The translations under genes were made by a program, and so were the position numbers. 64,000 nt of DNA. Origin: Woeseiaceae bacterium. Lineage in GTDB: Bacteria; Pseudomonadota; Gammaproteobacteria; Steroidobacterales; Woeseiaceae. Numbering within the stretch: position 1 is the stretch's first letter; each line of letters starts with the position of its first letter. The notes below the pieces were generated by a model. The model was not told the origin of the DNA, made no database searches, and saw only the letters and a list, made by a program, of their open reading frames with translations. The DNA lies in NCBI GenBank assembly GCA_028822065.1, contig JAPKEL010000001.1, positions 62,001 to 126,000 of the forward strand, in the 5' to 3' direction. Shown one piece after another: positions 5,332 to 64,000 of the stretch.

Positions 5332-6543
5332 TTAGTATGTTTTTCCCTTGATATATAAAGCAGATAATTGATCGAACCCGAGCCAATAAGATAGTTCATT
5401 CGGGTGATCTATATCCCAAACAGCAATATCGGCTTGTTTGCCTTGCTCCAAAGTGCCTTTTGTATTTGTTGCACCCAAAGCTTTGGCTGCTTCTCTTGTA
5501 ACCCCTGCCAAACATTCTTCAGGTGTTAGATTGAAAGTATTTGATGCCAGTGTCATTGCTAGTCTTATCGAACAAAGTGGAGATGTGCCTGGATTACAAT
5601 CTGTAGCTACTGCCATAGAAACACCAGAATTACGAAGTTCTTGAATTGGTGGTAACTGCGTTTCACGCAAAGTCATGAATGCCCCAGGAAGCAGAACAGC
5701 CACACAATCTGCTTCTGCAAGGGCATGAACACCTTCTATTGTAGTATATTCAAGATGATCTGCTGATAAAGCATGAAAATCTGCAGCTAATTTTGCACCA
5801 TTAGAGTTAGATAATTGATCTGCATGAAGCTTGACCGGTAAGCCCAGAGATGTTGCTTTCGTAAATAGCTTTGTAATTTGATTATTATTGAAAGCAATTT
5901 TCTCACAATATGCATCAACTGCATCGATGAGACCAAGATTATTTATTTCTGGTAGAACTTCTTCACAAACATATTGAATATAACTATCACTGTTGTTTTT
6001 ATATTCGGGCGGTATGGCGTGCGCGCCCAAAAAAGTCTTATGAATTGAAATATTCTCATTTTCAAGATTGCATGCGACTTTTAGCATTTTTATTTCGGTT
6101 TCTAGATCAAGACCATAACCGGATTTAATTTCTATAGTTCCAACGCCCTCTCGACGTAGAGATGATAATCGTGCTCTGGAATTATTAGTTAACATGGAAA
6201 TATCGCAGTCACGAGTAGCCTTCACAGTTGAAACTATTCCTCCACCTTCATTAGCAATATCCGTATAGCTTTTCCCATTGGCTCTTGCTTCAAATTCCCA
6301 AGCACGATTACCGGCAAATACCAGATGAGTATGACAATCAATTAAAGCTGGCGTTAACCATTTTCCAGGCATTGATATTTTTTTCTTTACTGTTTTATCG
6401 GGTATATCTTTTGTGGGGCCTAACCAAGAAATTAAACCTTTAGAGATAGCTAATGAGCCATTTTTAATTAGGCCATAGGATATGCCATTATCTGCCATAG
6501 TGGCGATATGAACATCAGTAATTAAAAGATCCCAATCTGGCAT
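5332..6543 (-). CDS. hutI: Imidazolonepropionase
   Basis: Third enzyme of histidine degradation; hydrolyses 4-imidazolone-5-propanoate to N-formimidoyl-L-glutamate. The amidohydrolase-fold protein has the metal-binding DCHTHLVFAGNR near residue 70, the glycine-rich IKSGYGLDLETE, a later HADQLSN and the C-terminal ATDCNPGTSP, all as in HutI. I chose ATG 6543 (403 residues, GGAATAAT upstream), because a start 15 codons earlier at 6588 adds a non-conserved tail and has no clear ribosome site. It is transcribed away from the other hut genes, with which it shares an 83-nt intergenic region containing a predicted HutC operator. Confidence 0.95.
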   Translation of the reverse strand: MPDWDLLITDVHIATMADNGISYGLIKNGSLAISKGLISWLGPTKDIPDKTVKKKISMPGKWLTPALIDCHTHLVFAGNRAWEFEARANGKSYTDIANEGGGIVSTVKATRDCDISMLTNNSRARLSSLRREGVGTIEIKSGYGLDLETEIKMLKVACNLENENISIHKTFLGAHAIPPEYKNNSDSYIQYVCEEVLPEINNLGLIDAVDAYCEKIAFNNNQITKLFTKATSLGLPVKLHADQLSNSNGAKLAADFHALSADHLEYTTIEGVHALAEADCVAVLLPGAFMTLRETQLPPIQELRNSGVSMAVATDCNPGTSPLCSIRLAMTLASNTFNLTPEECLAGVTREAAKALGATNTKGTLEQGKQADIAVWDIDHPNELSYWLGFDQLSALYIKGKTY

Positions 6544-12744: not shown

Positions 12745-14061
12745 ATGAAAAAAATAACGGGCTTGCATAATCTTTACGCGAAGAATTCAATATTGGCAGA
12801 TGAAGTGACTTGGGGTAGAAAAACAGACCCAATATCTAGGCGAGGATTTTTAAGAAACAGCGGGCTTATTACTATGAGTGCGGCTTTAGGGGCATCAATT
12901 CCGTTTGCTAAAAATATGCCTGCTGGGCTTATACCGGCAGCATTTGCGCAAACCGATCAATTGTTTGAGTTATTTGGAAAAGACGGATTAACGTTACTAA
13001 ATGATAGGCCCATAAATGCTGAAACTCCGCCTCATCTTCTTGATGAGAGAGTAACATCTGCCTCACGTTTATTCATAAGAAATAATGGCATTCAACCAAA
13101 TCAAGACACAGTCAATCCAGATAACTGGGAGTTAACTATTACTGGTGAATCCTGTATTGAAACTAAGACAATTACTTTAAATGAACTGAAAAATAATTTT
13201 CAGCATCATACACTGCAATTACAACTTGAGTGTGGCGGTAATGGGCGATCTGAATTTTTCCCACCTGCAAAAGGCAATCAATGGTCGACGGGTGCAATTG
13301 GATGCCCAGAATGGACTGGGGTTAGATTGAGCGAAGTCCTTCAGTATGCTGGTATAAAAGAGGACGCCATCTATGTTGCTTATGAAGGAAGGGACAAGCA
13401 TCTCTCAGGCGACCCTTCTAAAAAAGCAATTTCACGTGGCGTTCCCTTGTGGAAGGCGATGGAAAACGAATCGCTTTTAGTCTGGGGCATGAACGGTGAA
13501 GCATTACCGTTAATTCATGGCGCACCTTTGCGTATGATTTGCCCAGGATGGCCAGCATCAGTGAGTGGTAAATGGCTCTCCAGAATATTAATTAGAAATA
13601 AAGTTCATGATGGCGCAAAAATGAATGGTCAATCTTATCGCGTGCCATGCAAACCAATAGCACCTGGAACCAAAGTAGCTGATAAGGATATGTGCATCAT
13701 TGAATCCATGCCGGTGAAATCAATCATTACTTATCCAAAATCGGGGCTTACCCATCTTTTAAAAGATAAACTGAAAATACGTGGCCATGCTTGGGCTGGC
13801 GATTTTAGTGTAAAAAATGTGTACGCCTCTATTGATTTTGGCGCAAATTGGCAGCTGACTAAACTGGAAAAACCAGTGAATAGATTCGCATGGCAACACT
13901 GGAAGCAAGATATAAATTTTCCGGAGACTGGTTATTATGAGGTTTGGGTCCGAGCTGAAGATGAATATGGAAACTCACAGCCAGTGATTCTTCCGCAATG
14001 GAATCCACGCGGTTATTTAAATAATGCATGCCACCGAATAGCGATTAATGTCAGTGCTTGA
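12745..14061 (+). CDS. Sulfite dehydrogenase-like molybdoenzyme (SorA/SoxC family)
   Basis: A 438-residue protein of the sulfite oxidase fold, exported folded by Tat: the N-terminus has SRRGFLRNSG followed by a hydrophobic stretch ending in AFA. The Mo-pterin domain contains LQLECGGNGRSEF with the Mo-ligating Cys at residue 163, and the C-terminal dimerisation domain begins near LKIRGHAWAGD. Family members oxidise sulfite to sulfate in the periplasm and pass electrons to a c-type cytochrome. A cytochrome gene follows at once. The gene lies 2 nt after hutG, so it is probably in the same transcript. Thiosulfate-pathway SoxC and stand-alone SorA cannot be separated reliably here; sulfite as substrate is family inference. 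Confidence 0.85.
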   Translation: MKKITGLHNLYAKNSILADEVTWGRKTDPISRRGFLRNSGLITMSAALGASIPFAKNMPAGLIPAAFAQTDQLFELFGKDGLTLLNDRPINAETPPHLLDERVTSASRLFIRNNGIQPNQDTVNPDNWELTITGESCIETKTITLNELKNNFQHHTLQLQLECGGNGRSEFFPPAKGNQWSTGAIGCPEWTGVRLSEVLQYAGIKEDAIYVAYEGRDKHLSGDPSKKAISRGVPLWKAMENESLLVWGMNGEALPLIHGAPLRMICPGWPASVSGKWLSRILIRNKVHDGAKMNGQSYRVPCKPIAPGTKVADKDMCIIESMPVKSIITYPKSGLTHLLKDKLKIRGHAWAGDFSVKNVYASIDFGANWQLTKLEKPVNRFAWQHWKQDINFPETGYYEVWVRAEDEYGNSQPVILPQWNPRGYLNNACHRIAINVSA

Positions 14062-61320: not shown

Positions 61321-62577
61321 CTAGCCCCAATCTTGAACACGATATACAACTTCACCGCCCGCGCGAAGCCTCCATCCAGTAATGGGATTATTATGATAAG
61401 GGATAGAACCCGCACCTCTAACCTTTATTAATGTTTCACGGGTTGGTTGAACATATCCAGTTTCATCAATTGCTCGACTTAGAATAATGGCCTCTTTGCC
61501 ATCCCAATTAAATAAATGTCTAAATCGAGTATGTGCTTTGGATAGAATGGGTTCTTGAAGTTTTGCAGTCTCCCATGTTTTACCATTATCCGTGCTGACT
61601 TCGGTAGCGGTAATTTGACCACGACCACTCCAAGCAATTCCTTGTATTTCTATCCAGCCTTTTTCGACTGTATTTGGAAAAGTGGGATAAGTAATAATCG
61701 AGCGTGCATCCATAGTAAGACTAAACTGCCTTGCTTTTCCGTTTCGGATGGTTTCGGTATATTTAGAAGTCTCTTCTCGAGTCATAAAAGGTTGATCAGA
61801 AAACTCAATCCTTCGTAACCATTTAACTGACGAATTTCCTTCATAACCTGGATTTAAAAGTCTAACAGGATATCCATTTTCTGGTCTGATAGACTCTCCA
61901 TTTTGAGCATAAACAATCATAGATTCATGCCATATTTGCTTGGGGACGCTTCGAGTCAGCACTGCAGCATCGGATCCCTCAGCTAATAACCATGTTGCAG
62001 AAGGTTTGATGCCAACTTCTTTTAGTAATGTCGATAACATGACCCCTGTCCATTCACTTTGACTGGTCATGCCACAGATATTTTGTGGTGTTGTATATTC
62101 ATCCGCCTCTCTGGCTAGATTGCCAGAGCATTCTATAAAGCATATTCGACTTACAGCGGGAAAGCGTTTTAAGTCATTTATTGAAAAGGTCATCGGTCTA
62201 TCAACCATGCCATGAAGAATCAGTTTATGTTTTTGAGCATCAATGAGTGGTACACCAGCATGATGACGTTCAAAATGCATATCAGAGGGTGTGATAGTGC
62301 CATGTAATTGGTGTAATGGTGTTCGTGAACTGGTGCCCGTATATCTAACGTCACGTTCATATTTTTCAAATATAGAACGTTTTCCAACTTTAGTGGCCCA
62401 TTGTTTTGCTGTTACTTTTGTGGGATCTGCTGGCGCAAAAGGACGATTTGAGGATGTTTGAACTTCTTTACCTGTAGCTGATTTCGCAATCATTGTGCCA
62501 GCCGCTCCAGCCATACCAACGAGGGCACTTCGTCGAGTGATGTTTAATTTAGATGATTTATTTTCTTTTTCTTTCAT
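61321..62577 (-). CDS. Sulfite dehydrogenase-like molybdoenzyme (SoxC-type)
   Basis: A 418-residue Tat-exported protein (TRRSALVGMAGAAGTM at the start). The molybdenum domain has SRICFIECSGNLAREAD with Mo-ligating Cys at about residue 150; the Mo-co C-terminal dimerisation domain has IEIQGIAWSGRGQITATEVS. RYTGTSSRTPLHQLHGTITPS near residue 80 is SoxC-like. The next gene downstream of this one's start is a cytochrome (62580-63209), as in SoxCD. This is the second sulfite dehydrogenase homologue in the window. In Sox, SoxCD acts on a sulfane sulfur bound to SoxY; no soxXYZAB is visible here. Confidence 0.85.
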   Translation of the reverse strand: MKEKENKSSKLNITRRSALVGMAGAAGTMIAKSATGKEVQTSSNRPFAPADPTKVTAKQWATKVGKRSIFEKYERDVRYTGTSSRTPLHQLHGTITPSDMHFERHHAGVPLIDAQKHKLILHGMVDRPMTFSINDLKRFPAVSRICFIECSGNLAREADEYTTPQNICGMTSQSEWTGVMLSTLLKEVGIKPSATWLLAEGSDAAVLTRSVPKQIWHESMIVYAQNGESIRPENGYPVRLLNPGYEGNSSVKWLRRIEFSDQPFMTREETSKYTETIRNGKARQFSLTMDARSIITYPTFPNTVEKGWIEIQGIAWSGRGQITATEVSTDNGKTWETAKLQEPILSKAHTRFRHLFNWDGKEAIILSRAIDETGYVQPTRETLIKVRGAGSIPYHNNPITGWRLRAGGEVVYRVQDWG

Positions 62578-62579
62578 TA

Positions 62580-63209
62580 TCAGTGCACCATATTATATTC
62601 GAGACGATCATCAGGTACGAATTTATCGTGCGCAGGCATCACTATTTCTTTTAACGAACTGGCAGATAATTTTGTACTATCAGGGACAATGTTATTTAAA
62701 TATAGCAAATATGCTGAGAGCGCATAGACCTCATTAAATGTGAGTGATCCAGGTGCATTCATAGGCATTGAGCGTAAAATATAATCATAAAGTGTGGTTG
62801 CATATGGCCAGTAATTACCAATTGTCCGGCATTCAAACCCGCATGCAACAATGCCTTGTGGGAAATCTTCATCCTCATAGGCTACCAGCCGCTCATTAAT
62901 ACCGCCTTGACCGCTAACCCCGTGGCAAAAAGCACATTTAGTGGCATAAAGTATCTCTCCTTCACTGACAGAGCCTTCCCCAAGAGGTAAACCGGTGCCA
63001 TCTGGACGAACATCAAGATTCCATTTTTTAATTTCTTCTGTTGTTGCTGGACGTCCAAAATTAAATAAAATCTCCTCAATATCACTTTTTGTGTTGTTAT
63101 CAGAAGATTTTTGTTGGGCGCTTGAGAGGCTGGGTACCATGAAAGTAAAATAAATTATTATAATTTTTATGTATAGACTCAATGTCTTTTTTCCCCATAT
63201 GGATTGCAT
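62580..63209 (-). CDS. Periplasmic c-type cytochrome (SoxD-like)
   Basis: A 209-residue protein with a signal peptide (IIIIYFTFMVPSLSSAQ) and one haem site, CAFCHGVSGQGG, near residue 93. Sixth-ligand methionines are offered by RSMPMNAPGSLTFNEVYALSAYLLYL. The layout (N-terminal extension, single haem, 'MPMNAPGSLT') is like SoxD and related cytochromes. The gene sits 2 nt before the SoxC-type gene, so it is almost certainly the electron acceptor of that enzyme. Confidence 0.87.
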   Translation of the reverse strand: MQSIWGKKTLSLYIKIIIIYFTFMVPSLSSAQQKSSDNNTKSDIEEILFNFGRPATTEEIKKWNLDVRPDGTGLPLGEGSVSEGEILYATKCAFCHGVSGQGGINERLVAYEDEDFPQGIVACGFECRTIGNYWPYATTLYDYILRSMPMNAPGSLTFNEVYALSAYLLYLNNIVPDSTKLSASSLKEIVMPAHDKFVPDDRLEYNMVH

Positions 63210-63320: not shown

Positions 63321-63349
63321 TTGTAATTTTTTGCTAGTGAGGCTAATTT
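63321..63349 (+). promoter_or_regulatory. Possible promoter of the ileS T-box transcript
   Basis: TTGTAA (63321-63326) and TAATTT (63344-63349) with a 17-nt spacer would start transcription a few bases before the T-box leader. The -10 box is a poor match, so this is tentative. The rest of 63210-63320 is AT-rich and shows no gene. Confidence 0.35.
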
Positions 63350-63365
63350 CTGAAATAGAACATCG

Positions 63366-63608
63366 ATGGGGACAAATAGGTAATTAATTTGTTTATAGCG
63401 ACTGGAGGATGGTGAAAGCTCCAGAGCAAACTTTATTGAAAATCACCCCGGAGTTATCACCTGAAATGCAGTGGGCAAATTAAGTGTGATCGGCTAATCC
63501 ACGATAAGGGTACAATGAGGCGAAAATAAGTTTTTCGTAAAACCGGGTGGTACCGCGATAAAGAGTATTATTGCCCCGGACGTATACTGGCGTTCGGGGA
63601 TTTTTTTT
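63366..63608 (+). ncRNA. T-box riboswitch (isoleucine), transcription-terminating type
   Basis: This is a T-box leader upstream of ileS. Stem I carries the apical element CTGGAGGATGGTGAAAGCTC (from 63402) and the downstream CACCCCGGAG (63444-63453), both standard in stem I. The likely specifier codon is ATC (63456-63458), in GTTATCACCTGAA. The T-box core CCGGGTGGTACCGCG is at 63543-63557; TGGT (63548-63551) would pair with the tRNA 3' end ACCA. CCGGG (63543-63547) can pair with CCCGG (63575-63579) as antiterminator, competing with the terminator stem. Uncharged tRNA-Ile would allow readthrough into ileS. Fold drawn by eye only. Confidence 0.93.
63574..63608 (+). terminator. T-box terminator hairpin
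   Basis: CCCCGGACG (63574-63582) pairs with CGTTCGGGG (63591-63599) over nine positions including one G-U; loop of 8; eight T at 63601-63608. Its 5' arm shares the bases needed by the antiterminator, so the two structures exclude each other. It ends 21 nt before the ileS ATG. Confidence 0.9.
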
Positions 63609-63629
63609 GGGTAAAAGAAAAGTATAGAA

Positions 63630-64000
63630 ATGATATTTAAAGAAATAAAAAGCAGATATAACGGCCCAGCTCTTGAAAAAGAAGTCTTAGCTTTCTGGGA
63701 AGAAAATGCTGTTTTTGAAAAAACACTCGAGCAATCCAATCATCGTCCATTATTTACTTTTAATGAAGGGCCGCCAACGGCAAATGGTAAGCCGGGTATT
63801 CATCATGTATTAGCGCGTTCTTTTAAGGATGCTTTTCCAAGATACAAAACAATGCAAGGTTTTCATGTGCCGCGCAAAGCCGGTTGGGACACTCATGGTT
63901 TACCTGTTGAGCATGAAATAGAAAAGCAACTGGGAATTTTTGATAAGAAAGAAATCGAATCCGAGGTAGGTATTGCTGAGTTTACTCAACGATGTCGAGA
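63630..64000 (+). CDS. ileS: Isoleucyl-tRNA synthetase, N-terminal part, altered HIGH motif
   Basis: The gene runs off the right edge; 123 residues are visible. ATG 63630 begins MIFKEIKSRYNGPALEKEVL, followed by the class I synthetase start FNEGPPTANGKPGIHHVLAR. The HIGH signature is GIHH (residues 56-59; 63795-63806), with the first and third residues exchanged. RYKTMQGFHVPRKAGWDTHG and LPVEHEIEKQLGI resemble type 2 (IleRS2-like) enzymes of Bacteroidetes, Clostridia and some Bacilli more than the E. coli type 1 enzyme. It charges tRNA-Ile. Preceded by an isoleucine T-box; whether the chromosome also carries a type 1 ileS cannot be seen. Confidence 0.93.
   Translation, partial: MIFKEIKSRYNGPALEKEVLAFWEENAVFEKTLEQSNHRPLFTFNEGPPTANGKPGIHHVLARSFKDAFPRYKTMQGFHVPRKAGWDTHGLPVEHEIEKQLGIFDKKEIESEVGIAEFTQRCR

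Follow-up and report, generated by a model that had tools for sequence, protein, structure and literature searches.

An isoleucine T-box riboswitch precedes ileS, the isoleucyl-tRNA synthetase gene, at the 3' end of the window, the whole 64,000-base stretch of Woeseiaceae DNA analyzed here. In a cmscan search of the whole window, the T-box model RF00230 was the sole Rfam match reaching gathering score, with 103.8 bits against a cut-off of 93 (E 7.9e-22) and a full-length alignment to model positions 1-219 (Table 1). The 1.96 Mb (1958327-base) source genome holds one T-box match (E <= 0.001).

Table 1. Features of the leader and the start of ileS, in window coordinates
Feature	Position	Strand	Basis or remark
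-35-like hexamer TTGTAA	63321-63326	+	read from sequence; 17 bases to the -10-like hexamer
-10-like hexamer TAATTT	63344-63349	+	read from sequence
T-box leader (RF00230)	63354-63581	+	full-length model match
Stem I	63359-63455	+	closing pairs join columns 17-19 and 116-118 of alignment A3
Specifier AUC (isoleucine)	63442-63444	+	placed via the RF00230 alignment
T-box core GGGTGGTACCGCG	63545-63557	+	read from sequence
Bulge UGGU	63548-63551	+	read from sequence; complementary to the uncharged tRNA end ACCA
Antiterminator	63543-63579	+	CCGGG with CCCGG, GCGA with TTGC around the bulge
Intrinsic terminator	63574-63608	+	stem 63574-63599, eight T 63601-63608
ileS (type 2)	63630-64000	+	ATG at 63630; ORF cut by the window end; full ORF 1047 aa

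Read from 5' to 3', stems II and III lie between stem I and the core, and 21 bases separate the run of eight T from the ileS start. The AUC specifier corresponds to the amino acid of the downstream gene. The UGGU bulge has an established role in T-boxes, pairing with the 3' end of uncharged tRNA; known leaders also possess finer parts, specifically an AG bulge, a distal loop, and a pseudoknot. Terminator and antiterminator overlap at 63574-63579, which makes them mutually exclusive. A terminator scan returned one site, the leader's, versus a mean of 0.3 in shuffles, and the terminator folded alone reaches -18.7 kcal/mol (z -4.87). Stem I folded alone has ordinary stability (z -0.74), and an antiterminator fragment, one base short, took a different fold when folded alone. 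A stricter consensus scan left the two promoter-like hexamers unlisted. A match to NsiR1 over the 3' end of the leader was set aside: it scores 25 bits against a cut-off of 39 and overlaps the T-box.

A first-pass annotation of this DNA had called a T-box before ileS, and the covariance score above threshold bears out that call. The landmarks it named, an ATC specifier, a core with TGGT, mutually exclusive stems, and eight T, can all be read from the sequence. Its span, 63366-63632, begins 12 bases late and enters ileS by three.

Upstream of the leader lies a minus-strand ORF (62580-63209) with no NCBIfam match, in which CAFCH suggests a cytochrome c. The window also carries two sulfite-dehydrogenase-like genes, at 12745-14061 on the plus strand and 61321-62577 on the minus strand; one is SorA/SorT-like, below cut-offs, and one matches SoxC over the cut-off.

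The synthetase behind the leader

The window isoleucyl-tRNA synthetase (IleRS) matches TIGR00392 at 943 bits, over the cut-off. An identity as MupA (NF000257) was rejected: the 871 bits obtained fall below the cut-off of 1900, as for a relative rather than a true MupA. Against solved chains, it scores 906 bits with 8c8w, 874 with 1ile, 359 with 8c9f, and 347 with 1ffy. We take 8c8w to be Priestia IleRS2, 8c9f to be Priestia IleRS1, and 1ffy to be an IleRS1. By this closer sequence match to solved IleRS2 than to IleRS1, the window ileS is assigned to type 2 (IleRS2). The first-pass annotation was right that ileS follows the leader and overlooked the type of the enzyme.

Within Woeseiaceae, the window enzyme is 68-89% identical to the 20 other IleRS compared. 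Against the IleRS1 of nine further families in the order, identity is 26-28% (about 27%), a comparison that draws on 9 of 15 other-family genomes. One IleS over the TIGR00392 cut-off was present in 23 of 25 family genomes and none in the other two; in the source genome, ileS2 is the sole isoleucyl-tRNA synthetase gene found. Across a phylum sample, the window IleRS was matched at E <= 1e-150 in 6 of 397 genomes, the source included.

The active-site motif sets the family apart as well. It reads GIHH in 18 of the 21 family rows (the remaining three were truncated at the N-terminus during extraction) and HXGH in all nine IleRS (9/9) from other families of the order. According to PMC10485003, the swapped G/AXHH motif in IleRS2 is linked to mupirocin hyper-resistance. 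IleRS1 is described as the general proteobacterial type, with ileS2 transferred into some alphaproteobacteria (PMC4861432). Given that GIHH occurs in the only IleRS found in the family, natural mupirocin tolerance is predicted, and Woeseiaceae IleRS2 is probably mupirocin-tolerant; as a hyper-resistant type 2 enzyme it would have a mupirocin Ki in the mM range.

Distribution and conservation of the leader

The T-box is a family-wide trait of Woeseiaceae, a marine gammaproteobacterial family. With stricter filters, under which weak matches are lost, it was found in 89 of 107 Woeseiaceae genomes, one in each, including 43 of 45 good-quality genomes and all of the genera (12/12); two of the 18 genomes with no match are of good quality. 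In a 40-genome set that included the source, 22 of 25 Woeseiaceae genomes carried a T-box, and no match occurred in 15 genomes from other families of the order. The same stricter filters, again at the expense of weak matches, were applied to a class sample of genomes with completeness of 80 or more: 2 of 321 had a T-box, both Woeseiaceae, and no match was found in the 319 others, 299 of which were counted in the total only. The first-pass annotation had treated the locus as an unusual location, an oddity of one genome; the T-box is instead common to the family and to a second gammaproteobacterial group.

Genome size varies in the family. Both the window's genus and another one (G064, G113, G091; L053, L054, L055) include small genomes of about 1.1-2.0 Mb, and other Woeseiaceae mostly span 2.4-5 Mb. 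A T-box match is present in all three small genomes of the other genus and, for the window's genus, in 6 of 9.

Woeseiaceae belongs to the Gammaproteobacteria, order Woeseiales. The chance that the contig is instead a mis-assembled chimera, or derives from a T-box-rich phylum, is in our judgment vanishingly small. The leader does lie about 4.6 kb from the end of a 130157-base contig. Moreover, the source assembly contains no 16S rRNA (one was found in one of four relatives searched), so the family was placed by kinship and by named records. Against a chimera, the T-box recurs in those 89 separately assembled family genomes, among them a single 4.06 Mb contig (G013), and the junction with the upstream ORF, the point at which the first-pass annotation had asked for a chimera check, recurs with its sequence in three further members of the genus. 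The family is likewise tied to records named Woeseiaceae or Gammaproteobacteria. Specifically, the record "Woeseiaceae bacterium isolate PL25a_bin.57" falls in the window's family by the place and score of its T-box and by DNA match. The T-box of G089 has the same contig place and score as that of L079 (JANQLK010000028, "Woeseiaceae bacterium"), and the T-box locus of G054 is, over 3231 bases, letter-identical to that in the genome of L083, a "Gammaproteobacteria bacterium". The recurrent junction, the family-wide T-box, and the DNA match to a named record led us to reject both chimera formation and mis-binning. The first-pass annotation had argued from gene order for a gammaproteobacterial contig, and the window genes aroQ-accB-accC-prmA, purH, purD, rho, trxA, groEL, and dsbD fit such an origin.

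The second group emerged from a scan of named records for IleRS2, which covered the best 80 of at least 589 candidates, with the T-box searched in 35 of those 80 genomes. Among the matches listed, IleRS2 is 60-66% identical in L081, L082, and L084, which are labelled Gammaproteobacteria or Acidiferrobacteraceae. L081 has a T-box scoring 99.4 bits; L082 and L084 have IleRS2 and no T-box match. When the genome of L082 and its relatives were searched under the stricter filters that lose weak matches, 33 of 61 had a T-box, one each, and 28 had no match. IleRS2 lies behind the T-box in all nine second-group loci examined (9/9). The 33 T-box places were compared by eye with the 89 from Woeseiaceae, and none coincide. 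One member, L300, carries a glutathione S-transferase-like ORF between T-box and ileS2, so that two genes may be under T-box control in this genome. Near the T-box-less ileS2 of L082, positions 5732-5814 match an S-adenosylhomocysteine (SAH) riboswitch (RF01057) at 48.4 bits, with a cut-off of 37.

To describe the leader as an RNA, 39 of the 89 family matches were fetched, and 33 of these 39 leaders form alignment A3. Three near-copies (L005, L008, L054) and three leaders with terminator inserts (L059, L065, L070) were excluded, and hence the pair counts come from alignments lacking those three irregular leaders. The inserts are palindrome-like sequences of the GGTG-CAGTCACC type, in or beside the terminator stem, and perhaps represent a small mobile palindrome.

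Specifier, core, and bulge are invariant in 33 of 33 aligned leaders. Standard pairing holds in 96.5% of cells across the 44 canonical pairs, and both sides have changed in 31 of the 44 pairs (197 cells), versus 20.3 pairs and 56.9 cells in shuffles, none of which (0/500) scored as high. Shuffles leave relatedness unaccounted for; slid controls, in which partners were moved by 1-3 columns, retain relatedness and gave 29-44 both-side-changed cells. This covariation backs stems I, II, and III. In helices 1-4 of stem I, 97.0-99.2% of cells are paired, and 12 of 16 pairs show both-side changes in some row; in canonical stem II, all four pairs do (4/4). The nine pairs of the antiterminator are retained in 33 of 33 leaders, and because they hardly vary, being mostly invariant, they carry little information on covariation. 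An 8-pair helix from stem II to the core, proposed by RNAalifold, was set aside: none of its pairs has changed on both sides (0), and shuffling gives the same result. With one invariant side the helix is unable to covary, and canonical stem II uses the same bases.

The surroundings of the leader are conserved too. The T-box lies on the IleRS2 strand in 39 of 39 family loci, and alignment places the core 68-167 bases upstream of the start codon. Of the 39 loci, 37 also have the pattern TTG-N3-N17-TA--T, picked after viewing the alignment, just upstream of the leader. Hairpins at or below -10 kcal/mol that end in a T-rich tail were likewise counted in 37 of the loci, those of L059 and L065 being doubtful; no terminator-like hairpin was found in L053 and L054.

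Could the leader be the non-functional remnant of a T-box that was transferred and then decayed? Of the 89 family matches, only 16 pass the Rfam gathering score and 73 fall under it, so annotation strict to that score would presumably miss most of them. Some second-group members have no T-box, and the terminators of L053, L054, L059, and L065 are missing, weak, or irregular. The compensatory changes across the family, the invariance of specifier, bulge, and core, and the promoter-like element in place at nearly every locus all speak against decay, and we consider a relic very improbable. As judged from these alignments, the leader is under selection as RNA in Woeseiaceae.

History of the leader and ileS2

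Two trees bear on where the leader and the enzyme came from. A careful tree holds 54 IleRS2 rows, all trimmed to the N-terminal half, and a quick full-length tree holds 70 of 106 IleRS2 rows. In the careful tree, 29 gammaproteobacterial IleRS2 rows from the two groups form one clade (100/100), and those of Woeseiaceae form one clade within the sample (95/93); for the second group, a single clade was unrejected (AU test, p 0.161). L082 and L084, which have no T-box, branch among rows that carry one, making T-box loss the simplest reading for them. The single gammaproteobacterial clade makes one ancient import, with T-box losses afterwards, the likely history.

In the quick full-length tree, the neighbors of the clade are Roseiflexaceae, Trueperaceae, a Myxococcales MAG, and G499 (98 SH-aLRT). 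The N-terminal tree does not reproduce this placement and gives the clade different neighbors. Among the matches listed, a T-box core precedes IleRS2 in Chloroflexota, Deinococcota, Actinomycetota, and some Bacillota. An IleRS2 gene in an Oceanococcus MAG labelled gammaproteobacterial (L095:8001-11063) falls outside the two-group clade. It groups with Bacteroidota in the quick tree and with Ignavibacteria and Acidobacteria, on a long branch, in the N-terminal tree. The L095 genome has no T-box match, and its IleRS2 may be either a separate import or contamination.

The first-pass annotation had proposed that leader and ileS were transferred together. That proposal draws indirect support from the single IleRS2 clade and from outside IleRS2 genes with T-box cores, and the two appear to have been imported together, long ago. 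Alternatively, the T-box was not imported with ileS2 and was added later, or the two had different donors. The shifting neighbors of the clade would allow this, as would the fact that IleRS2 with no T-box core upstream is common among the named-record matches listed; in addition, trees of T-box leaders are reported to be extremely unreliable (PMC2494555). However, five Chloroflexota (L086, L087, L088, L096, L112) have a T-box core before ileS, detected in L096 and L112 by the covariance model as well, and the Deinococcota L103 has a core and a partial 30.4-bit match there. The nesting of L082 and L084 also argues against separate arrival, which we deem unlikely. Our best guess at the donor is a lineage with T-boxes, for example Chloroflexota or Deinococcota.

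More finely balanced is how the pair came to reside in two gammaproteobacterial groups. Woeseiaceae and the second group may have had no common ancestor with the pair, one passing it to the other or each acquiring it separately. In favor of this, the 15 genomes from elsewhere in the order are without a T-box, and all nine enzymes examined there (9/9) are IleRS1. The single IleRS2 clade counts against separate entries from outside and leaves transfer between the groups untouched, and we place this alternative only slightly below an even chance.

Shared inheritance leads to a broader proposal. Specifically, one T-box-ileS2 import would have displaced ileS1 in an ancestor that Woeseiaceae shared with one or more other families. 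The T-box would now be established and inherited in part of the Gammaproteobacteria, comprising more than 100 species with a single T-box on their only, presumably mupirocin-tolerant IleRS, and antibiotic selection on the enzyme may have carried the riboswitch along. We judge this proposal in its entirety to have an even chance of being right.

Proposed mechanism and comparison with known systems

We consider it highly probable that a transcription-attenuating isoleucine T-box controls ileS2 and that leader and GIHH ileS2 entered a gammaproteobacterial ancestor together and replaced ileS1. The notion is that transcription begins just upstream of stem I, at the putative promoter, and that the AUC specifier pairs with the anticodon of tRNA-Ile(GAU). 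If this tRNA is uncharged, its 3' end would pair with the UGGU bulge and stabilize the antiterminator, and ileS would be transcribed. If it is charged, the terminator would form and transcription would halt. The imported unit would have come from a T-box-bearing lineage outside the class and been retained in Woeseiaceae and the second group, with the T-box lost in some members.

Searches with RF00005 and ARAGORN in genome stretches revealed neither tRNA-Ile(GAU) nor tRNA-Ala(UGC) among 30 tRNAs of the source genome or 42 of the single-contig relative, and neither appeared in one further stretch of a third genome. A degenerate pattern for tRNA-Ile(GAU) gave no GAU match in 11 genomes. The unseen tRNA-Ile(GAU) probably reflects a gap in the searched sequence and not a true absence.

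Judged from titles and abstract openings in mostly open-access literature, we found no report of a T-box in Gammaproteobacteria, Woeseia, or Woeseiaceae. Published surveys place T-boxes in Firmicutes, Actinobacteria, Chloroflexi, Thermus/Deinococcus, and Geobacter (PMC3766115) and isoleucine T-boxes in Deinococcus, Dehalococcoides, and Actinobacteria (PMC2494555). Of the 125 proteobacterial genomes in the latter source, 2 have T-boxes, which accompany leuA, and the word Proteobacteria is absent from the main text of the TBDB paper (PMC7778990). A covarying, family-wide T-box in Gammaproteobacteria widens the range of the riboswitch class. It also offers a natural example of a regulatory RNA whose transfer probably accompanied that of its gene and which persisted as the sole T-box in foreign transcription machinery, in a family whose only found IleRS is a swapped-motif IleRS2 with predicted natural tolerance. 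There is strong support for Woeseiaceae as a lineage new to this known riboswitch class, and one in which the synthetase itself has been replaced.

How does this system compare with those already known? Like RF00230 leaders elsewhere, it combines a full-length match with stems I-III, core, UGGU bulge, antiterminator, terminator, and an aminoacyl-tRNA synthetase gene downstream. It differs in that the host is a gammaproteobacterium and that genomes with any T-box match have one (89/89). The ileS T-boxes of Chloroflexota (Thermoflexus L096, Anaerolineaceae L087 and L088, Roseiflexaceae L112) likewise precede a type-2 ileS with the swapped GXHH motif, whereas their IleRS2 is only 43-47% identical to the window's. 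Furthermore, the six Chloroflexota genomes searched yielded between 3 and 8 T-box matches apiece, unlike the one per Woeseiaceae genome. Geobacter sulfurreducens and Pelobacter carbinolicus are Deltaproteobacteria. Their T-box resembles the present one in that its hosts are classed as Proteobacteria in PMC2494555, but it sits in a different class and before leuA, in contrast to ileS here. Finally, the Streptomyces griseus type of IleRS2 with G/AXHH (PMC10485003) shares the type-2 enzyme and the swapped signature, GIHH here; in Woeseiaceae, by contrast, IleRS2 is the only IleRS found, and resistance is predicted from the motif.
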